The notes under the pieces: generated by a model
Database searches by the model: none
What the model was told of the DNA's origin: nothing
Seen by the model: only the letters and a program-made list of their open reading frames with translations
Origin: Paramacrobiotus metropolitanus
Taxonomy: Eukaryota; Tardigrada; Eutardigrada; Parachela; Macrobiotidae
DNA length: 64,000 nt
Assembly (NCBI RefSeq): GCF_019649055.1
Contig: NW_026570294.1
Span: forward strand, 310,001 to 374,000
Direction: 5' to 3'
Position numbers and translations under genes: made by a program
In this document: positions 5,101 to 51,681 of the stretch, piece by piece
Position numbering within the stretch: position 1 is the first letter of the stretch
Layout: every line of letters starts with the position of its first letter

Positions 5101-6932
5101 CTGTAACGATTAATTTAAGCAATGAAGTTTAAGGCAACGGAACTGCAAAAGGTCTATCTTTAATAATAACAGGTAGCGCATGGTCAGTAAAGATATAGCA
5201 AATATAGTACACGGAAGCGACTAAGTGCTAACGTACATAGTCGCCGTTGGTCATGTTTAGGCGATTTGCCGTCACCTGTCGATCAAAAAGAGCGTATACG
5301 TATAACGAGTCAGTGTGGTCAGAAAGTTAGTAATAATAATCCATGACGCTCACCATAATATCGCGAACAACACGAGGATGAGCGCAGATCACTCCCACTG
5401 TCATGGTCATAAACAGGCAAAAATCATGATTTTAGCAATGTTCCGTATCATAATTATGATTTAACGATGCATCACCTCGGCTTTGGTTCTGCATCCGTGA
5501 CAGGAGTGTTGTGGAGTCTTGACTTCCTCTGGAGCTGAATTCCAGTTTATAGGTAAGATATTTGGTTGTCGTTGATCCATCTAGAGACCGCTTAAGATCG
5601 TGGCAGGCTATCATAGGACACACCCCTTTGCTGGAACTGCATGGGCGTATCGCACAAGAGCGTAATGTTACTCCAACGGTATCTGTCTAATAATAGCTTG
5701 AAACTCCGGAACGTTGCTACTTCATCCGAGGATGTAAAGCTCATTAACGTTGGATAACGTTCTTTATCGGCAAGCGTACTGTACTATCGCTTGCTGAACT
5801 AAAAAAGACGATACTAAGGATGCATAAGGTACTTTCGAATTTTAATCTTTTTTTTGTAACGCAGGTCAGCGTTTCGGTTGATTGTGGCTTTTTCCTCCGG
5901 TTAAATAGGCAGTTCTTAAATTTCATATGTTTCATTAAAAGCCGTTTGCAAGAGTGACCTTACGATGCAATCAGCGGAACATCCCATTCTGCAATGCAAA
6001 CCGCATTGTGATTGATGAAATTCAATAAATACTCAGTTGATGTTGAATATATCAAAGTTGTAGTCAAGGTGACAATCAATAATCAGTCGCACTAACTTAT
6101 GGTTAATCTTTATTTGATGAAGATTACCCAATCCAAACTCTTATGGATTGCTGAGAGGAATCGTGTGTAAGTAATTTAGAAACATTCGCTGCATTTGAGC
6201 AACTGGGTTCTCCAACCTGCCTTGGGCAGAGTGTCCAAGATTCAGCATCTCCATGCTACACCCTGTAATAAAATCTGGGAAGATGCAAAAAATTCCTGGA
6301 GGTGGTATGGGAGCGGCTGACAGGTGCAGTACCACTGTAATGTAGTTAATCTCGCAAAAGTTGGAAACCCGTTTCGATACTATCATTTTTATTAAGTTAT
6401 TTGAAAGACTGGGCATGTACCGTACAGTTCTACAGTGCTAACCGATTTGAATCATTTTGTATAAAAGATGCGGGATGTTCTTTAACATACTGGAAAAACT
6501 AACTAAAGCTGATTGAACCGCTTGCAGTAACTTTCTGCTTGTTGTTAATTTTACGTTTTCAAAATTTACGGGAAAGTTTACCTGGAGAAAACATGACCGT
6601 AAAGCTGTGAGGATATCGCAGGATGGCTTGATAGATGGTTTCTGATAAGACCGGAATTAAGGCCGCGCCATCGGCACAACTGAGTGTGCCAGGGTAATGG
6701 ATTGTCGTTCTGGATATATTAACAAATGTCATCGGATAGTCCTGCTGCACTCGCTCCAAGGCCACGTCTAATGCCGGTCCAACTTCGTAATAACTGAATG
6801 CAGTAGCGTCACCGATAAAAATGTTAATGACATGGATGTGTGTTTGATTAGAATCGCCCAATGTGAGCCTGCAAAAAAAAAACTCAGCGCAACATACAGC
6901 GACAAGGTCAACTCATAAACACGCAACGGCAT
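2189..6932 (-). CDS. Receptor guanylate-cyclase-like protein lacking the cyclase domain (ANF-binding + TM + kinase homology)
   Basis: Read on the minus strand. Around 6582-6870 is a start-of-ANF-domain exon with GPALDVALERV followed by a conserved Asp-Gly-Ala stretch, ending at a GTAAAC donor. Further ANF-like pieces lie near 6262 (GCSMEML), 5590-5780 (LLLDRYRWSNITLLCD), about 5020-5110, about 4840-4945 and 4437-4633 (end of the ligand domain). A hydrophobic TM segment lies at 3160-3240 (exon end 3158). The kinase-homology domain follows in exons 2855-3100, 2592-2783 and 2189-2527, with phase-matched introns of 57, 71 and 64 bp; it shows HLHHENLNKFVG, a GLKYLH segment and LWAAPEV. Catalytic kinase residues (HRD, DFG) are replaced, as in receptor cyclase pseudokinases. 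The frame stops just after the APE region. No coiled coil or cyclase catalytic domain follows. Several middle exon borders are unresolved. Confidence 0.75.
3353..3893 (+). mobile_element. 5'-truncated non-LTR retrotransposon (LINE), reverse transcriptase C-terminus and 3' tail
   Basis: The reading frame 3353-3766 has the look of a LINE reverse transcriptase C-terminus: a GILPLFTRWRQNEATWLYKI block, a YNLRKGN motif, then a Trp-containing block and a final FKHAL segment before the stop. About 100 bp of 3' UTR follows, ending in an (AAT)n run at 3867-3891, the simple-repeat tail typical of CR1/Jockey-like LINEs. The upstream domains (endonuclease, RT palm) are missing, so this is a dead 5'-truncated copy. 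It lies antisense in the intron between the ligand-domain and TM exons of the receptor gene. A related fragment sits at about 30233-30790. Confidence 0.75.
6871..6932 (-). other. Probable signal-peptide segment of the receptor gene, one base out of frame
   Basis: An ATG at 6930-6932 (minus) begins a hydrophobic stretch, MPLRVYELTLSLYVALS then Phe residues, that looks like a secretion signal. It runs straight into the ANF exon through a run of ten T (minus strand, 6873-6882). With ten T the signal is one nucleotide out of frame with the following LTLGDSNQTHIHV; eleven would join them. The run is followed by GCAG, so it could instead be a splice acceptor with the first exon further upstream. 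Homopolymer assembly error, real frameshift and intron all remain possible. Confidence 0.4.
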
Positions 6933-8234: not shown

Positions 8235-10017
8235 TTAGGGTTCCGATAAAAAATCTTTAACCCAACTGGGATTATTTTTCAAGGCTTGCTCCGGATTTTT
8301 CGATTCTTTACAGTCGAGAAGCTGGATTTTCTCAGTCACGCGTATGCTGATTTTAATTTCTTCTAACCTTTTAATACTGTCCAAAAAGCCTGTCCGCTTT
8401 TCGGACTTTTCTGCTTCAATTAAAATATCCACGTAAGCAGCATTCCCGATCGCGTTAGGGAGAAGCGCAGTCGCCTGAATTCTCTGTAGACATTCAAGCG
8501 ATTCCACAATAGGTGCAGCCATTTCCAATACATTTCTTGCAAAAGTATCCGTCAAACTCTCTAAAATATTTTGTGTTGCCTTCTTTTTGTCCTCAGCTTT
8601 ATCACGAACTTCCTTCATACTCTCGTCTATCTTGGCTTCGCCCCTGAAGCCAGACTGGAACCGGTACTGCATGTTTGCATGTTCGAACGCATAACAGTTA
8701 CGTGGGCAAACAAAACACCGTCCATCCATCATTATCTCAGCGGGAATCTTATCGGTGTTTTGTAAATGCCTATACGACTGATAACACGTTGTGTTGCAAC
8801 GTAAGCAGTTGGTAGCGTACTGCCCAACTGGAACTTCCGTTTTGCTCGTATAAGGGATGTTTCTCACTTGCTCGTATTTGCTGTTTGCCTTTATTTCTGC
8901 CTCCAGTTGTTGTAGCTCTACCTGTGGATCAAGAGACGATTAATCTCATGTTTTATAACACGCCCACGTTTTTGTAAACAATTGATAACTAATTACCATA
9001 TGTGAAAAATTAAATAGAGTAGAAACAATATTAATAATATTTTAGATGGCTTTACATTCCTACCTGATGTTTCCGGATCGTTTCCATTGAATTTTTATTA
9101 CTCATATATAAAGGAACCAAAAGCCGCATTGCCTCTTTTAGTGCATGCCGTTCATGCAGTACTTTACATGTCAGATTCAGTCGGCAGGGACTAGTCCGCT
9201 GGAGATGAAGAAAAAATTTGTCGATACTGTTTTCGCACATGTTCCAGTATAACGTACTGAATGGACCACAGTTCTCATTATTATCAGCGTATAGTGCGCA
9301 ATTGTTGAAAGAAAACCATTGTTTATAAGGGATTTCGGCTTTCTTAGCGGCAGCCAAGACCGGAGGATCTTTATCGTCCGCAAACGTACAGAGCAAAAAT
9401 ATATTTTCGGCAACGTCTTTTCCAAACAAAGCCAACACGGAATTGTATATATATTGCTGGGTTACGGTCAACCGTGGTCTGGCACTTTGGGTTACGATGC
9501 AGACCGCATCCAAATGCGTAATTCCAAGCTGTCGGGTATTTTCATCGCTTAGAAAATGTTGGATCTGGCGAATAATTTCCTCATCGCGCAGCATGCCTTG
9601 CGTGTCACCTAAACCGGGTGTGTCAATAATTTTCAGACAAAACTGCGATGCCACTGCCGGATTTGGCGATATTTCATATACGGTAACATGTTTTGTGATA
9701 CTTTTTGCTTGATTTGTGTCTTCATCGTCCTCCAGAGCAACTTCGAAGCGAACGCTGTCGGTCCATTTGACACCAAAACTATGATTAGCGAATGCGTTAA
9801 TCAGCGTTGTCTTTCCAGCTCCAGTTGCTCCCACCAGTAAAATAACTTTTTCGGGTTTAGTACTCTTTGCCGCAGTTGCGGGGCATCTTTTAAATTTTTG
9901 TGATCCATCCAGTTTCATTGAAACTCCGTAAATATCAGGAGAACCGACAGAAAGCAATTTAGCATTTTCTACTAGTCCATATATGTACTGCGAGCGCGCA
10001 GTTTCCATGTTCGACAT
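8235..10017 (-). CDS. AIG1/IMAP-like GTPase with C-terminal Cys-rich region
   Basis: Two exons: 9064-10017 and 8235-8921, joined in phase 0 by a 142-bp intron (donor CAG/GTAGGA, acceptor CCACAG/GTAGAG). The predicted protein is 546 aa, counting from the ATG at 10017. Exon 1 holds a complete P-loop GTPase core: Walker A GATGAGKTT (about residues 63-71), a G3 motif IIDTPGLGD (about 131-139), and LLCTFADD in the region where AIG1-type GTPases carry their G4-like motif. Exon 2 begins with a short coiled-coil-like segment (ELQQLEAEIKA) and then Cys pairs (NCLRCNTTC, CFVCPRNC) with a nearby His, possibly metal-binding, followed by a helical tail. AIG1/IMAP-type GTPases act at membranes in immunity and stress; the role here is unknown. 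A close paralogue with the same exon layout lies at 22919-25369. Confidence 0.85.
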
Positions 10018-44126: not shown

Positions 44127-44184
44127 CATGGGAATGACCGGGTTAGCGCTTACGCAAATTTTCGTCATATTGAAATCGTGCTAA

Positions 44185-44701
44185 CAAGCACGAGGACCCA
44201 GTTGTGGTTGGACTTCAGGTACATGCTTAGGCTTAAAATAAAGCTTACAATATGCTTTATTTTAATCCATTTTTTTCTATGCCACTGATATCAAAGGTAA
44301 AATTTAAAAGACTGTCAAAGTTGTTAGAGAGCAAGGATGCAGTATGGAGATCCTTATGTCTCAGCGCATGATGTTCATGTCTGTGCTTGTACACGTGAAG
44401 CACAGACCTCCTGCTTTCGTTTTGGGCAATTAGTTTTGCTTTTCGACTATTGTTTTTGGTTTTGGAACATCATGTTTGCGTTTTCACCATGCGCAGACAT
44501 TAGGAGCGTTAACATGATGGGATGAGACAAACGGATCTCCATACTGCATCCTTGCTCTCTAACAGCTTTGACAGTTTTTTACATTTTCTCTTTGATATCA
44601 GTGGCATAGAAAAAAATAGAATAAAATAAAGTATATTCCAAGCTTTATTTTAAGCCTAAGCGTGAACCTGAAGTCCAACCACAACTGGGTCCTCGTGCTT
44701 G
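44185..44701. mobile_element. Foldback MITE, about 170-bp inverted repeats
   Basis: The left arm (44185 to about 44355) and right arm (about 44531-44701) are near-perfect reverse complements, starting CAAGCACGAGGACCCAG. The trinucleotide TAA flanks both sides (44182-44184 and 44702-44704), a plausible 3-bp target duplication as seen with PIF/Harbinger-type MITEs. The roughly 175-bp centre is itself partly self-complementary and has no real gene. It lies immediately 3' of the truncated tandem copy 3. Confidence 0.85.
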
Positions 44702-44704
44702 TAA

Positions 44705-45728
44705 GGGTAACTGGGTTTTTTGACTATGAAGAGAAATTATCGCTGTAATTAGTTGTACCATAACAAGAGATTTAGCTTTTTATGTTCAGTTGTATCACTT
44801 GTATGTACCGTAAACCACACAAGTTCTGTTGTTCCCACTACTTTCTTGTTTATTTGTTTGATGACGCTGCTGCTACGAACTATGCACGGCATACTATGAT
44901 CATTAAGACGTTGCTGATGGACGCTATGTGGCTTTTCCAATAATATTGTAAGACTGAACTCTAGTTAAAAATGATCCACACTCGTTGATATACTGTAGCA
45001 TGTACAGGGGTGCTGCGCCAAGTTCGGGCAGTTGGGTAAAATAAATTATACAGTTGTCCAGTTGGTCTTCTAGTTTTTTGTTTTGCACTTTTTAGTGCAA
45101 CTTTTTATGGCAAATTTAATGATACAAAACTGGATCCGTTGAGTCTCTCAGTAACGAGTTGGGCGCTTAATAAGGGGGAGGGGGAGTGGGCGTTTTAGGG
45201 ATGGTTATTACAGCCTTTATAAAAAATTCCCCAAACTATATTTTTGCACGCCATTTTCTGGAAACGTTGAGTGGTCCAACGGTGTCTTTTTTGGGTTACG
45301 AAAAGAATCTCGCGTCATCGGTGATCGAGATTACCTCCACACAACTTGTGTCTCCCATAGACTTATATGGACTGCTAAGTCAGTTACGTGTTCGTTCAGC
45401 TTTTGAAAAGCATGGGATCACAAAAAGCTAGTACTGCACTCGTATTACGGTATTAACTGGAGAGTACAATAAGAATGAATTTTGTTTGTCTTACTCAGAT
45501 GTGGCATGAATCAACGTAATTTTGCATAGGGTTGCAGCAGCTGGTAACTGCAGTTCTTGAATGATGTTGGAAAAAGTTTGTCCAACTAGTACGCCTGTTT
45601 AAAGACGAAAGTGATAACTGATTTCTAATATTTAATCTGGATTTTGGATTTTTCACCTGATGTCATGACTTTTGCGTCCTGTACAGTCAAAAGCCAAGCG
45701 TCCATAATTTTCCTTTTGTGTCTGATTA
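44705..45728. other. Intergenic, no gene supported
   Basis: An 81-codon ORF at 45186-45431 (+) has no recognisable content. A G-run (GGGGGAGGGGGAG) lies at about 45174-45186. No terminal repeat of the neighbouring primase/transposase block was recognised here. Confidence 0.4.
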
Positions 45729-46262
45729 CTGTAGCCGCTCGCTTGAGTTATACCACACAGTTGGTGTACGGGAAAAATGCGCACCAAATATACACACGCT
45801 GGCCGGGCCAAATGCACGGACCAGCGCGATTGTAAATTCATTGACGTTTATTCTGAGAATATTGTCCATCAGTTTTTAAGGTGATAACTTTCTCTTTTCA
45901 ATTTTAAAAATCTCTTAGACAAACCGCACTGTATTCCACAGGAACGATCAGTTTTCAGGCACCAGCATACTGTCGCTCAATGTGCCTCCCCCTTCCAGGG
46001 GCACCCCAAAAACCACAACAAATCAGCTGCTAAACTCGTACATACATCAAAACTCAAAGTTTATGGCCTTATTTTGGTGTCAAATTTTAGACTGATAAGT
46101 TTTTTTAAATCTCAGATAGATCAGATCGAAAAATGTAACAGAAAGAGTTACAGAAGCACGGTAAATAAGAATCGTGCATTTTGCCCGGCCAGAGTATGTA
46201 TATTTGATGCGCATTTTTCCCGTACACCAACTGTGTGGTATAACTCAAGCGAGCGGCTACAG
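45729..46262. mobile_element. MITE, family A copy 2 (TA target site)
   Basis: Inverted repeats of about 89 bp start CTGTAGCCGCTCGCTTGAG at 45729 and end at 46262, flanked by TA on both sides (45727-45728 and 46263-46264). It shares terminal bases and internal blocks with the element at 10-412, in inverse orientation. The long well-matched arms suggest relatively recent movement. It abuts the left side of the primase/helicase/transposase block. Confidence 0.88.
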
Positions 46263-46429
46263 TATAACTTTGCAGTCCAGTATATGCTCTCCTTGAATTA
46301 TTGCCTATAATTATAAATACATTAGTTATTTATAATGAATGTTTTTAAGAAATAAAAAATATCGAATTAAAATAAAATATATTCGTATGTTTTTGATTTT
46401 TCGGTACTGATTGCGCGTAGTACCTGCAG

Positions 46430-47696
46430 AAACGATGTTTGTTGGTCTGGTAAATGGTCATCTACATCTACATGCAGGTGATTCTTCTCTAGTGGACTAT
46501 CTGGAGGTTCTTCCACGTTTTCATCCATTTTTTTCGAAAGGTCACGCTCAAAATTTATCTTTTGTAAGCTTACAGTACTTTACTATCAAAGTGTAATGAA
46601 ATTGTTGGTGGTGCTGCAGAGTTTTTACCAGTTTACGTGTTTCCAGGGAGATAATTCCGTTGTTCAAATCGATGTACTCTGTTCGTAAGAGTTGAATTGC
46701 AGGCCATCCTTTTGAACGCGCCAAATCTTTACAGGATGTATCGTGACATCTGAGCTGTACCGAGCTGGAGTTTTTCTTATAAATCAAATAGGTATGGTTT
46801 TTGTCGTGCTGCTTTCGCTGAGAAACACAGTATCTGCATTTCAGGATAATAAGAATAATTTGGGTGTGGAGGTTGTAGTCAAAAAGCATGTTATTCTGGG
46901 TCAAAAATGCTTCATCCCAACGACACAAGATTAGCGAAACGATTGTTGTTAAAACTGCGTTTGGTGCGCCTCTTTTGCAAATACTGGTCCTCGATTCAGT
47001 AGTGTGTTTTGTTGGCTGTTGACAATAATCGGATGAAAAGAAATTGGGCGCAGTGCGTACAGGATAAGAACATACTAAAGACATTTCGAAAAATATTTCG
47101 TTACTTAATGGTAGATACGATTTGGATGTTAACGAGCTTTTCGTAAGAAATGCAAATTTCCCTTTTTTTGAGCAATTTAACAATCGAAAATTTTGATTGG
47201 TGTTGTACACATTCATGTCAATGCATGACGTAAATCTTCCATATTTATCAACAACCTGGAATTCCGGTAATTCAGAAATGGGTTGCATTATTGACTTGAA
47301 CAGTTTATTGTATGGCTTTAAAATTTTTGGCCATACAAGATGAAAACTTTCTTTAAATTCTGATGTTGAATCCAGAACAATAACTTCATCATTTCCAAAG
47401 ATATCGTTGATTTTTTCGATCAGCAACGGTATTAATTTTGTTAATGTGATAGTAGGATTTTGGGTTTTTAGAAATTCAAGATCGGTATACAATTTTGCAG
47501 TGTAAAATTCCGGAATAACTTCGTAGAAGTTCCTGCTGCATGAATCAGTTGCATTAATTAATGTCCAGATATCTGATACTGAGCAGACGATAAATTGTCT
47601 GGTATCAGTTAAAGATAATTCTTGAGCGTAAATTCTGTATTCTTCTGTTGTTCGTAAATAAGATAAAGCGGGTGCAAGCTTATGAAAGTACAACAT
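46430..47696 (-). CDS. PrimPol-type archaeo-eukaryotic primase with UL52-like zinc finger
   Basis: The main frame is 46548-47696 (382 aa from the ATG at 47696). Catalytic motifs of the PrimPol branch of the AEP superfamily are present in order: YTDLEF (motif I, D72 and E74), ESFHLVWP (motif II, S117 and H119) and CIDMNVYNTNQNFRL (motif III, D160). A C-terminal zinc-knuckle pattern follows: CRYC near 287-290, KQHDKNHTYLIY and RCHDTSC at 317-322. The stop is at 46548-46550, but on the same strand, one frame over, an acidic stretch (DLSKKMDENVEEPPDSPLEK) continues to a possible GTACTA donor at about 46430, so a frameshift or an unseen splice may extend the protein. Such enzymes prime and extend DNA; here the neighbours suggest a role in copying a mobile element. 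Confidence 0.8.
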
Positions 47697-48179
47697 TCAT
47701 AATACGCAAGTTACAAGTACAATACTAATAAGCGGTAATAAAATTTAGTTTTGTACTGTAGACATATAATAACAGCAAAGCTATTAGCATCAATCGACAG
47801 TAAAGCTATCAGAATCGGTCTACACAGTTACCTAGCAAAACCAAATTTTAAAACCTATTAGTAATGTTCGCTATCTACATACAGTTATTATTCATCAGAA
47901 CAAATGCTAACGCTACGTTTATTACACCGTACTGAGGTACGTAAGCAAATCGAGATGTAGGTTCAAACAAGAATATGGATGTACAGTAAGTATAGTAGAT
48001 GTTATAAAAGTAAATAAAGTAAGTATAACAGTAAGTACAGCATTTAAGTACAGTGCAGTACATAATGTTATTATAGTAAATATAATTGTTGCAGTACGAG
48101 TATAAGTACTGTAATAATTGTCAGTAGTGCAGGTGTTCGCAACTGAAAAGTACAAGTACGAGCGCAGTACTGTGACTAG

Positions 48180-49364
48180 TTAATAAATATTCACATCGCC
48201 AAAGTCAAGAGTGTCGAAGATATCCTGTTCGTTCTGCACTGGAGAACGTTTACGTTTGAAGGGTTGAGTCTTCATTTCAGAGTTCGCTTCATTGGCAAAT
48301 GGATTCGTTTTTGTGAATTCCGCTAAGCTCTCCATCATTCCTTTCATCTTGGATGCGCGAATGCAGTACACAGAGTTGTACAATTTTTCATATTCCGTTG
48401 GAATGAATCCTGCTTTTATTAAATTTTCCGAAAGTGATTGAGATGGAGTTGTTTTATAAAATACGAGAACGGATTTCCCTGACACCGTTAAATTTCGTTC
48501 TTCTGCTTTTCCAAAACCTGACGTTTCGAGATCTTCTATCATATTCTTAAAGGTTACCTCCGAAAGCCGTGAAAATCCTTTTTTATCACCGTAGTACTCG
48601 TTGTACATTCTTGCTGTCACAAATTTTCCCGGAACCATGAGAGCACTAAATGTGCGAAATTCTTGGTCATCCTTATTATTTCCTTCGTCGTAAAGTTTCA
48701 TGCAATGGGCGCTAGTTGTAATGAATTTTAGAGAACGGTGTGCTGTTTCTTCGTTAATAATTGGTGGTATCGCAATATAGCCATCTGTCGTGTAGGAATC
48801 ACATGCGTTCTGAAAAATGTGCAATAGTACTGCAAATTTCTGTAAATTATCCTCCATTTTTGACAGAAAAATTGCGCTAACAGTTCCACAATTGGATCCA
48901 CTTTCGATTTCATTATTGTGCAGAATTTTCATTTTTTTCAGATCTTTTGACAATGAACGGATAACGGCGTAAGCCTCTTTGCTGAACGTGTAGGTTTGCT
49001 CGTCTTCTATCTCTTCATAGTATTCATACAGGGCATAAATAATATTTAAAAAATTGTGCGCGGGAGGCGGCTTCGTTGATTTAGCTTGATCACTTTCGTC
49101 AATATCCGCAACTTCGTCATCAACTGCAGTTATTAACCATCTATCTTCGAATCCGTTTCCTGTGGACCACGTTTTTAATAGATTGCAAAAATCTTGGGGG
49201 TGTATTGTCCCAAATATTGTCGACGCTGTGCGGTTTAATTTCAACGAGGTAGCAGTCTTGTATTTAAGTTTGATTGACTGACCGCCCCATATCTTATTAA
49301 GGGTATTAGGAGCGTTTTCATCGCTACCGTAAACATTTTTCAATGTCCCGAAAATTTCATCCAC
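48180..49364 (-). CDS. DUF3987-like helicase, C-terminal part
   Basis: This 394-codon frame continues upstream to an acceptor at about 49416 (TTTTAG/CATACCG); the added part reads DQLRDQKGFTSILVDEIFG, where DE is a likely Walker B. The following GGQSIKLKYKTATSLKLNRT, FGTIHPQDF and GNGFEDRWLI blocks fit the DUF3987 family of primase-associated P-loop ATPases. A basic, nuclear-signal-like PFKRKRSP sits near the C-terminus, which ends DTLDFGDVNIY. It is on the same strand as the primase and downstream of the Walker A fragment. The link between the two helicase pieces is not in phase with the obvious splice sites, so the gene may be damaged or have an unrecognised exon. Confidence 0.65.
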   Translation of the reverse strand: MDEIFGTLKNVYGSDENAPNTLNKIWGGQSIKLKYKTATSLKLNRTASTIFGTIHPQDFCNLLKTWSTGNGFEDRWLITAVDDEVADIDESDQAKSTKPPPAHNFLNIIYALYEYYEEIEDEQTYTFSKEAYAVIRSLSKDLKKMKILHNNEIESGSNCGTVSAIFLSKMEDNLQKFAVLLHIFQNACDSYTTDGYIAIPPIINEETAHRSLKFITTSAHCMKLYDEGNNKDDQEFRTFSALMVPGKFVTARMYNEYYGDKKGFSRLSEVTFKNMIEDLETSGFGKAEERNLTVSGKSVLVFYKTTPSQSLSENLIKAGFIPTEYEKLYNSVYCIRASKMKGMMESLAEFTKTNPFANEANSEMKTQPFKRKRSPVQNEQDIFDTLDFGDVNIY

Positions 49365-49577
49365 TAAAATCGAAGTAAATCCTTTCTGGTCTCGTAACTG
49401 ATCACGGTATGCTAAAATTAAAATAATTAACTAGTAACTATATATTGTTAAAATATAATTAAAAAAGTTAGTTTTAAATGCATTAGTACGAGTACGAAAG
49501 TAGGTGAACTCGTCAAAGGTCACTCGTCAAAGGTTAACAGCCAAAAAAATTAATTATCAAAAATAAAATAAATTATA

Positions 49578-50217
49578 TTAATACTTTTTATAGCATGGTT
49601 TAGTGTTATTATAAATTTCTTCTTGCTCGGTACCTGCAAAATTTGCTGGATTGTCATAGAAGGACTTCCCCTTTTTATCTCCGATATAGTCGCAAATGTT
49701 TAGACAAAATTCTTCGATGGCCTGAGATTTGCCACTACCAGGTTTCGCAACAATTAAGGCATTTACTGCCGAACAGTGAACTTTTCCATGTTCTGTTGCT
49801 TTAACTAGTACTTTCTCACCGCATAAAGCTGCTATAGCTCCCAGAATCGATATAAAGATTGCACTTTCCTTTGATCGTCTGGTCACTGCGTAATAAGTGA
49901 TGGATTCCAGCAAACTTCCTTCGAGATAATCACCGACATTATGCGTAAAATTTTTTGTAGCGGCTCTGTGTATACGGTCCGCTGTTCCGCGAGATACTGT
50001 AACTGTCTGTCCGTTATTTCGCATTTTCCGAAAATCACTGTGAATCTGTCAATCTACGATTGCAAATTTTTGCAAGAATTTTATTCATTACTTTAATTTC
50101 ATCACCTGGTTGAAATTTATATATTATTTTGTAATTCTGTTGCCAGGACCATGTTTGCACAAGTACAGATACTTCAGCTTCAGACGTACAGTACATTTTT
50201 TTTGTATTTTTTATCAT
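49578..50217 (-). CDS. DUF3987-like helicase, N-terminal part with Walker A
   Basis: Frame 49578-50024 reads KNFTHNVGDYLEGSLLESITYYAV, an ESAIFISILGAIAAL segment, then LIVAKPGSGKSQAIEEF, a Walker A motif in the context expected at the start of DUF3987 helicases. Upstream, 50035-50217 holds another frame from an ATG at 50217 (MIKNTKKMYCTSEAEVSVLV); the two frames overlap by about 10 bp out of phase, so either the first is a separate small protein or a frameshift separates them. The 3' end near 49580 has AAAAA/GTATTA, a possible donor to the exon at 49416. The initiation codon overlaps that of the divergent transposase. Confidence 0.6.
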
Positions 50218-51097
50218 GAATTTAAGATCGCTATTGGAGGAAATTGTTCACGAAGAAAGTGCGGTACAATTCGCTATTGAGAAAGGTCTTCTAAAGCGCA
50301 CAATAAACTGCCCTAATCACGAAAATGAGCAGCTATCTATTGTTAATCGCCCTGGCCGTCTATTTCGCTGGTCATACCGCTGTAGGACAGGTTCATGGTT
50401 ATCGATCAAAACGGGGACCATTTTTGACCACTGTAATGTGCCTATAGACAAAGCTATATATCTCACCTATTTGTGGTCAATGAAGACCCTGAAACAGAGA
50501 ACAATTGCGTATGAAGTGGGTATCAGCAAACAAACGTGTTCGTCATGGTTGTCTACCATCAGGGACATCTGTTACATGGAGATCCAGGAAGAGTTAAGCT
50601 TATCTCGAATAGGCGGACCAGGATTAACTGTCGAAATCGACGAAAGCTATTTATTTAAACGAAAATATGACCGCGGAAGATTCTTGGTGAATTCAACTTG
50701 GGCGATTGGTGGAATTTGTCGGGAAACAAGGGAAGCATTTGTGGTAGCTGTTCCCGATCGTTCAGCCAGTACTTTAATGCCAATCATCCTGGCACATGTA
50801 GCACAAGGCACTTATATTCTAACTGATATGTGGCGTTCCTATAACGGCCTGATCGATAGCGGATATTTTCACGAAACCGTCAATCACAGTGAGAATTTTG
50901 TAGATCCAGAAACTGGGGCGAACACAAATCTAATCGAAAACCTATGGAAATGGTTGAAAAACGACGTACCACGAACTGGAATTACACCAGAAAAACTGCA
51001 AGGCTATTTGTACCAATTTTTGTGGCGACGAAAATACGGCAACGCTGCATTTGATAACATTCTTGCTCATATAGCCGAACTATTTCCTGGAAGATAA
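50216..51097 (+). CDS. Merlin/IS1595-like (ISXO2-type) DDE transposase
   Basis: An intact 293-aa frame. An N-terminal zinc-ribbon-like CPNH ... YRC (C32, H35, C56) is followed by a helix-turn-helix-like TLKQRTIAYEVGISKQTCSSWL. The catalytic core has the DDE pattern of the IS1595/Merlin superfamily: VEIDESYLFKRKYDRGR (D142), YILTDMWRSYNGL (D204) and TGANTNLIENLWKWLK (E241), with the typical NHSENFVDP segment between. No intron is needed. The ATG (50216-50218) overlaps the minus-strand ATG (50215-50217) of the helicase-side frame. Merlin elements normally carry only the transposase; the primase and helicase genes alongside are unusual. No terminal repeats were identified. Confidence 0.85.
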   Translation: MNLRSLLEEIVHEESAVQFAIEKGLLKRTINCPNHENEQLSIVNRPGRLFRWSYRCRTGSWLSIKTGTIFDHCNVPIDKAIYLTYLWSMKTLKQRTIAYEVGISKQTCSSWLSTIRDICYMEIQEELSLSRIGGPGLTVEIDESYLFKRKYDRGRFLVNSTWAIGGICRETREAFVVAVPDRSASTLMPIILAHVAQGTYILTDMWRSYNGLIDSGYFHETVNHSENFVDPETGANTNLIENLWKWLKNDVPRTGITPEKLQGYLYQFLWRRKYGNAAFDNILAHIAELFPGR

Positions 51098-51681
51098 ATG
51101 TCACATCTCTTCGTAATTTCTGTTTACTTCCGACATAATACAGCTGACCTTTGTGTACTATAATTACTGATTTTTGATTATTAATTTAGTGGTGCATAAA
51201 TCAATGAAATAAAGATATGTAACAATTAATGTAATGGCAAGTTGCGTCTGTAGCAAAACCCCAGGGGTAGGCTACCCAAAAACTAACAGTTATAATTTTT
51301 AAAAATCAATATGAAGAGTATGTATCTGAGCAACCAGTACTTAACCAGCAACCAGTAAAATAGGGGGGTCTGTTCCACAAGTAGTCCTTTACCGTTATAA
51401 CGTACCTAACGAAGGATGGGGTTGCCTAGCACAGAGACTTAAGCGACGTCGAGCTGATATACATATAACTTATTAGAAAACTGGTAAAATTACTCCGCTG
51501 TGGTTGCGGCCCGCACCCTGCGGGCATAGCTCCTCGATGAGGCGATAAAATATCGAGCTTAACGTTGCAGGATACGTATGAAGTGCAGTAATAGTTTTTT
51601 AACCACTTTCCAGACAGAGTTGCACATCGACAAAGTCACAAAGCAGTAGTATGTACAAATCTACGAGCGGAAACGCCGGGG
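51098..51681. other. Spacer, possible right end of the transposon
   Basis: No gene found. It includes a GGGGTAGGCTACCC palindrome near 51263-51277 and a GGGGGG run at about 51362-51370, but neither matches a sequence on the left side that I could find. Confidence 0.4.

Follow-up and report, generated by a model that had tools for sequence, protein, structure and literature searches.

The 64-kb window analysed here (the whole stretch of DNA under study) is part of contig C74 of the assembly of the eutardigrade Paramacrobiotus metropolitanus, which comprises 170 Mb in 533 contigs. Between positions 45491 and 51393, it contains the recognised part of a candidate Merlin-type transposon, counted from the left limit of its homology to a related element on contig C81 to the end of its right terminal inverted repeat (TIR). 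A first-pass annotation had placed a primase, a helicase and a transposase at 46430..51097, and had read them as a Merlin element carrying primase-helicase cargo. The three genes were found there, but the element extends beyond that span on both sides. Contigs of the assembly are labelled C7, C32, C74 and so forth, and labels beginning with L (such as L068 and L066) denote loci taken from them.

Three genes of the window copy

The transposase gene (50216..51097, plus strand) is intact, as first proposed, and encodes 293 aa. The protein matched PF12762 (DDE_Tnp_IS1595) with E=8e-19 and the NCBIfam model IS1595 with E=2.6e-25 (89.6 bits; cut-off 75). As expected of a Merlin transposase, it has the DDE_Tnp_IS1595 domain, and no N-terminal zinc-binding Zn_Tnp_IS1595 domain was detected by Pfam up to E=1. 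A search with three copies of the transposase returned 1468 proteins; among the best 120 of these, the top species-named match came from the scorpion Centruroides, and the relatives included nematodes, insects and a sea slug.

The helicase is encoded on the minus strand by two exons. Exon 1 (49634..50024) contains the start ATG and the Walker A motif AKPGSGKS, and exon 2 (48180..49411) contains the Walker B motif SILVDEIFG, with the stop codon at its low end. When the two open reading frames (ORFs) were searched separately, that at 48183-49430 matched PF13148 above the cut-off (E=3.3e-10) and that at 49581-50048 below it (E=2.3e-4). The helicase is split over two frames because of one predicted 222-bp GT-AG intron (49412..49633); the joined protein of 540 aa carries both motifs and matched PF13148 (DUF3987) with E=6.8e-16, which confirms the Walker A, the likely Walker B and the DUF3987-like blocks that had been noted in the separate frames. 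A profile of exon 2 found no convincing relative in the PDB (two matches, E=0.36 and 0.55). Contigs in ENA hold a helicase (P0011) with 43% identity to that of the window and a transposase (P0013) with 57% identity, and because of these two the element family is probably not confined, as far as sequence likeness can tell, to the P. metropolitanus genome.

The primase gene (46548..47696, minus strand) encodes 382 aa. Its ORF matched Pfam AEP_C962R with E=5.2e-5 (24 bits; cut-off 23). Moreover, phmmer comparison with human PrimPol chains gave E=4e-14, and a primase profile built from four copies matched human PrimPol structures (5l2x and 7jk1) with E=1.6e-24. In the phmmer alignment, YTDLEF of the window protein lies on YFDLEF of human PrimPol and SFH lies on SRH, and in a second, weaker block CIDMNVY aligns with FVDLGVY. 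With DxE, SxH and the third Asp in register, the AEP motifs reported in the first-pass annotation (DLE, SFH and a third Asp) are the same as those of PrimPol, and the protein falls within the PrimPol family. A UL52-like zinc knuckle had been proposed as well; the residues of such a finger are present in the window primase, but they score below the Pfam cut-off, which was passed only by the relative on C68 (E=1.1e-4). NCBI has annotated this gene (model P0001, window 46.4-47.7 kb) as 'DNA-directed primase/polymerase protein-like isoform X2'; the model fuses the transposon primase with the beginning of the next, RPA-like, gene, and scores 22.6 bits against AEP_C962R, slightly below the cut-off of 23. 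The reading frames of the window primase, spliced helicase and transposase are all open.

Complete copies in the genome

When the assembly was searched with the window primase, 13 matches were found on 10 contigs, and a transposase was adjacent in all ten. On seven of these contigs (C74, C81, C154, C94, C32, C59 and C65), a Merlin transposase and the helicase lay within ~10 kb, and on the remaining three (C68, C91 and C139) a MULE-type transposase was present instead. The helicase gave 17 matches on 10 contigs, nine of which also had a primase match. The Merlin transposase query yielded 26 matches on 16 contigs, with the full set on seven and fragments without the full set on nine. Helicase exon-1 DNA was retained beside the transposase on C249 (near 88 kb) and C73, and the transposase fragments on C110, C31, C446, C96, C41, C130 and C503 were accompanied by no primase or helicase match. 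Weaker IS1595-type ORFs were detected by Pfam on C150 and at C249:51655, and neither contig had a primase match.

Both TIRs and a target duplication were located for six elements (C59, C65, C154, C94, C32 and C81), which are referred to as complete. The copies on C59, C65 and C154 have identical first and last bases and different flanks, one end reading GGTAATAATGTACAAGTGGGCCTG and the other, read from its own side, GGCATCAGTGCACTAGTGGGACAG. The TIRs are imperfect: over the outer 24 bases, which were the part compared, the two ends are alike at 16/24 positions in C65, 20/24 in C32 and 13/24 in C81. Seven distinct end sequences were obtained, every one starting with GG. Perfect 8-bp target duplications, each different, flank all six complete copies (GATTACAG in C59, GCTGCGCT in C65, GGCGGGTA in C154, TCAAATTC in C94, where the right end was taken from locus L036, CAAAAGTG in C32 and CGATTTTC in C81). 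Element lengths were 8,983 bp in C59, 9,076 bp in C65, 8,958 bp in C154, 8,373 bp in C32 (L066:444-8816), 8,420 bp in C81 (L068:33-8452) and ~10.9 kb in C94, internal duplication included, and in each of these six elements (8.4-10.9 kb) the TIRs enclose primase, helicase and transposase alike. In the available part of PMC8101967, Merlin elements are defined by TIRs of at least 24 bp with terminal GG and by 8-bp or 9-bp target duplications; the terminal GG of all seven end sequences, over the 24 bases compared, and the 8-bp duplications of all six complete copies agree with that definition.

The internal duplication in C94 is direct and covers more than 1.2 kb of the helicase region (L064 6245-7448 / 8801-10000), and C65 has a direct duplication of 94 bp (L065 5459-5552 / 5560-5653). 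At C94:467520-467800, away from any full copy, lie 281 bp given as 100% identical to the element's left end, perhaps a deletion derivative.

One way to account for the window would be that a Merlin element landed by chance next to an unrelated primase-helicase element. The window by itself, which yields only one end, and the transposase fragments without the full set on nine of 16 contigs would fit such an accident. However, the seven three-gene sites, together with TIRs outside all three genes in six of them, contradict it for the six complete copies; chance insertion of Merlin beside unrelated genes is thereby rejected, and we regard its remaining probability as negligible. The first-pass annotation had named repeated co-occurrence, along with TIRs and 8-9-bp target duplications, as the test of its reading, and TIRs tightly around the transposase alone as the pattern that would speak for chance; the co-occurrences and the TIR-bounded copies support that reading, in which transposition might be coupled to copying, and the opposing pattern was not seen in any of the six complete copies.

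Two components beyond the three genes first described are an RPA-like gene and a kinase. A gene with an OB-fold is coded in all six complete copies; it matched Pfam with E=2e-6 in C32, a four-copy profile matched yeast RPA1 with E=1.1e-6, and by these similarities the gene is related to RPA70, while the C81 OB-fold ORF on its own gave no Pfam match. A deoxynucleoside kinase is present in five of the six complete copies (C59, C65, C154, C94 and C32; PF01712, E=2.5e-20 in C65), and among solved structures it comes closest to the deoxynucleoside kinases 1j90 and 1zm7, which we take to be insect enzymes. A PF01712 search found no kinase in the window copy, the C81 element or C68. When 107 ORFs of at least 55 aa from the C154 and C32 elements were scanned with Pfam (E ≤0.001), only five families were found: deoxynucleoside kinase, DUF3987, DDE_Tnp_IS1595, OB-fold and AEP_C962R. 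PHROGs added, for the same ORFs, only two families of unknown function, which match the transposase too. As judged from these matches, the replication module consists of a PrimPol-type primase-polymerase, a DUF3987 helicase and an RPA70-like gene, with a deoxynucleoside kinase in one sub-lineage. The primase is followed by the RPA-like gene on the same strand in the C65, C32, C81 and C68 copies; the orientation of the transposase gene is reversed between the window and C81, and the position of the kinase differs between C32 and C65.

Many matches to PF01712 also occur outside the elements, at C81:90447 and on C26, C496, C5, C35, C30, C23, C49, C8 and C6, and may represent host genes or additional mobile copies. 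In the C81 element, ORFs of 107 and 305 aa (L068 2972-4053) with no counterpart in the window interrupt the primase region, possibly as a nested insertion.

At the right end of the window copy, the TIR (51370..51393, minus strand; reading inward GGTAAAGGACTACTTGTGGAACAG) was recognised by comparison with the ends of other copies, and the adjoining 8-mer GTTATAAC (51394..51401) occupies the position of a target duplication; a second copy of it was not found within the window. To the left, alignment shows that homology to the C81 element ends at 45491. A motif search, a search for the 8-mer GTTATAAC and an alignment with the C81 element revealed no left TIR in the window, and the window copy is probably left-truncated. 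An ORF (46370..46579, minus strand; MDENVEEPPDSP...TSFLQ) from the ORF list, part of NCBI model P0001, adjoins the primase and probably includes exon 1 of the RPA-like gene; a similar ORF, by eye, follows the primase in C81 (L068:1769-2107). A remnant of the downstream exons (45491..45739, minus strand) was recognised by alignment to the C81 element (L068:1173-1450) and by tblastn with the C32 exon (E=1.9e-6 at 45658-45729); beyond the remnant at 45658-45729, tblastn with OB-fold and kinase exons detected no OB-fold or kinase gene in the window. The remnant is cut by a 538-bp miniature inverted-repeat transposable element (45727..46264), recognised by its 92-bp inverted ends and present in copies of 99% identity on C79, C92 and C182, which is an insertion and no part of the element's machinery. 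Left of the element, the window also contains a 195-bp inverted repeat (44181-44375 / 44511-44705; 91% complementary, with a 135-base spacer).

Selection, age and a second transposase

Pairwise comparison of the copies on C59, C65 and C154 revealed 3-5 substitutions per ~8.95 kb; C94 was left out of this count, since one locus covers it only partly and it has a duplication inside. Because three copies differ so little, the element family has, by this measure, moved recently.

Selection was assessed through eleven pairwise comparisons of nonsynonymous with synonymous substitution (dN/dS). Between C32 and C7, the latter a locus where the helicase matched but the primase did not, dN/dS was 0.06 for helicase exon 2 (405 codons; dS of 2.8, near saturation) and 0.11 for exon 1 (152 codons). 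Between the window helicase and part of the decayed C81 gene it was 0.02 (136 codons), and between the C68 and C91 primases, both MULE-linked, it was 0.38. Synonymous sites were saturated in seven of the eleven comparisons, which gave no ratio. In the saturated pair C32 and C154, the proportion of nonsynonymous differences (pN) was 0.17 for the transposase, 0.24 for the OB-fold gene and 0.31 for the primase, and that of synonymous differences (pS) was 0.80-0.94. On the measured ratios, the helicase is under purifying selection and, given the values of 0.06-0.11 in the C32/C7 pair, is not passenger DNA.

At the three loci without a Merlin transposase, namely C68:166501-186000 (L071+L069+L070), C91 (L020) and C139 (L012 and L033), a MULE-type transposase ends 1.1-2.4 kb upstream of the primase on the same strand. 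The C68 protein matched PF10551 with E=1.4e-11, and a search with it gave these three loci as the three best of 68 rows. The MULE transposase, which has a SWIM-like finger, precedes the primase and the RPA-like gene, and on C68 and C139 the DUF3987 helicase is present too, a pairing that the first-pass annotation had not anticipated. No pair of TIRs or target duplications was found for the C68 element in its flanks, the ones fetched. Both in a 14-row primase tree and in a 9-row helicase tree, a well-supported branch parts the Merlin-linked from the MULE-linked sequences. The history of the kit may have been exchange in either direction or two separate captures; the trees do not tell which, because the deep branches of the primase tree lack resolution and several of its rows are long. 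The MULE-linked region also contains, on the opposite strand (L069:4837-5730, minus), a 298-aa ORF without a Pfam match whose end resembles Ulp1-type proteases by eye.

Transposons of many lineages take up host genes, according to the available parts of PMC6431247 and PMC12730594, and the kit might likewise be made up of captured passengers with no role in the Merlin life cycle. This appears very unlikely to us in view of the low helicase dN/dS, and of a linkage that has been kept although window and C32 share no more than 39-47% identity in helicase and transposase and ~29% in primase; the same kit, moreover, adjoins MULE transposases.

Replication module and proposed mode of copying

Taken together, these data indicate that the window locus is almost certainly a copy of a Merlin-type DNA transposon family with a selected replication module between its own ends. 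That the job of this module would be to copy the element outside the chromosome is evenly balanced in our judgement; transposon identity and out-of-chromosome copying, joined loosely into one proposal, are likely. In such a cycle, the transposase would excise the element at its GG-ended TIRs, the helicase would open the excised DNA and the RPA-like protein would coat it. PrimPol would prime and may extend, and host polymerases may do the bulk of the synthesis. The kinase would supply deoxynucleoside triphosphates (dNTPs) outside S phase or in non-dividing cells, and the transposase would reinsert the copies by an 8-bp staggered cut.

Several observations weigh against this proposal. In the near-identical copies, the frames of the transposase, helicase, primase, kinase and OB-fold gene are interrupted at sites that differ from copy to copy; if real, these breaks would imply that the copies were moved by proteins supplied in trans. 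However, 40 of the 46 small gaps among the three copies sit in homopolymer runs of at least 3, which hold 20% of the bases, and because most of the gaps lie in such runs, the frame breaks and small gaps suggest long-read assembly error in repeats. In addition, C7 carries the helicase with no primase or transposase match, C91 carries the primase with no helicase match, and for the window copy neither a left end nor a left duplication was found. Among the 107 ORFs taken from C154 and C32, Pfam detected no replicative DNA polymerase. Finally, the whole of the evidence comes from sequence.

The chief alternative is plain cut-and-paste transposition in host S phase, in which the kit would only help to fill gaps or restart forks where the element is excised or inserted, and copy number would rise without an extrachromosomal replicon. 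Cellular PrimPol reprimes stalled forks, and PrimPol is the sole polymerase that Pfam identified in the 107 ORFs, both of which would suit such a role. The deoxynucleoside kinase in five of six complete copies would fit bulk copying outside S phase better, and we consider gap repair, on balance, rather unlikely.

It is also conceivable, and less likely again, that the locus represents an integrated replicon of linear-plasmid or virus-like kind, for which a Merlin or MULE transposase came to serve as integrase and whose virion genes were lost or never present. Sets of primase, helicase and kinase are typically seen in viruses and plasmids, the kit accompanies two unrelated transposases, and helicase exon 2 weakly matches the phage DNA-helicase family phrog_2373 (E=2.1e-5). 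Yet Pfam and PHROGs detected no gene for structural proteins, packaging or a family B polymerase in the 107 ORFs, scans of IMG/VR with three profiles gave no relative, and the RPA70-like and insect-like kinase genes look eukaryotic. A provirus with a capsid is not supported, given only the five kit families in those ORFs and the empty IMG/VR scans.

Returning to the preferred reading of a Merlin transposon with its own replication module, comparison with known systems shows both likenesses and differences. The DDE_Tnp_IS1595 transposase, the TIRs starting with GG and the 8-bp target duplications are those of Merlin, a superfamily of eukaryotic DNA transposons related to IS1595/IS1016, but three to four DNA-replication genes are added within the TIRs. 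In the available part of PMC8101967, Merlin consists of a transposase gene with TIRs on either side, and a helicase is not mentioned there. The element primase has its AEP motifs in register with cellular PrimPol and is close to it by profile, but it differs in residing on a multi-copy transposon, where a helicase and an RPA-like gene accompany it. Polintons/Mavericks have a family B DNA polymerase, a retroviral-type integrase and 6-bp target duplications. They and other self-synthesizing transposons resemble the present element in holding an integrating enzyme and their own replication proteins inside TIRs (PMC6431247, available part). In contrast, the element of ~9 kb has a Merlin transposase instead of a retroviral-type integrase, its duplications are of 8 bp, and Pfam found no family B polymerase or capsid match in the 107 ORFs, so that it stands outside the Polintons in polymerase, integrase type and duplication length. 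Teratorn, described in that review as a piggyBac transposon fused with a herpesvirus, likewise joins a DDE transposase to replication genes, primase included, but it is ~180 kb long with virus structural genes, whereas the present element is a small kit in which no structural gene was found. DNA transposons carrying TET/JBP, as far as the available part of PMC12730594 describes them, similarly have an accessory gene common to unrelated transposase superfamilies; theirs is a single epigenetic enzyme, as opposed to a whole replication module here. Among the titles and abstract openings listed by searches of the open-access PMC literature, with preprints, Repbase and most subscription journals lying outside this scope, no Merlin or MULE element with a primase and helicase was found.

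The element is thus a Merlin transposon by its defining features; its gene content fits a self-synthesizing transposon, one that may be copied by its own enzymes, and by these genes it would work as one without a family B polymerase. The module common to Merlin and MULE elements may well merit a class of its own. More tentatively, and with slightly less than even confidence, we propose a PrimPol-based cassette (primase, RPA-like single-stranded-DNA-binding protein, DUF3987 helicase and sometimes deoxynucleoside kinase) that is exchangeable and has combined with two or more superfamilies of transposase (Merlin and MULE), and by which animal transposons would replicate outside the chromosome with no family B polymerase. 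New transposons could arise, a 2019 review speculated, from the union of an integrase with a nucleic-acid-primed polymerase and a primase (PMC6431247, available part). For annotation, there is the warning that a gene named 'DNA-directed primase/polymerase protein-like' (P0001) is a transposon gene. Cut-and-paste DNA transposons are commonly described as relying on host replication and repair for their multiplication. If the proposal is true, a 9-kb animal transposon with primase, helicase, single-stranded-DNA-binding protein and dNTP salvage would represent a second route to self-synthesis beside that of Polintons, and the near-identical, recently moved copies make this idea testable.

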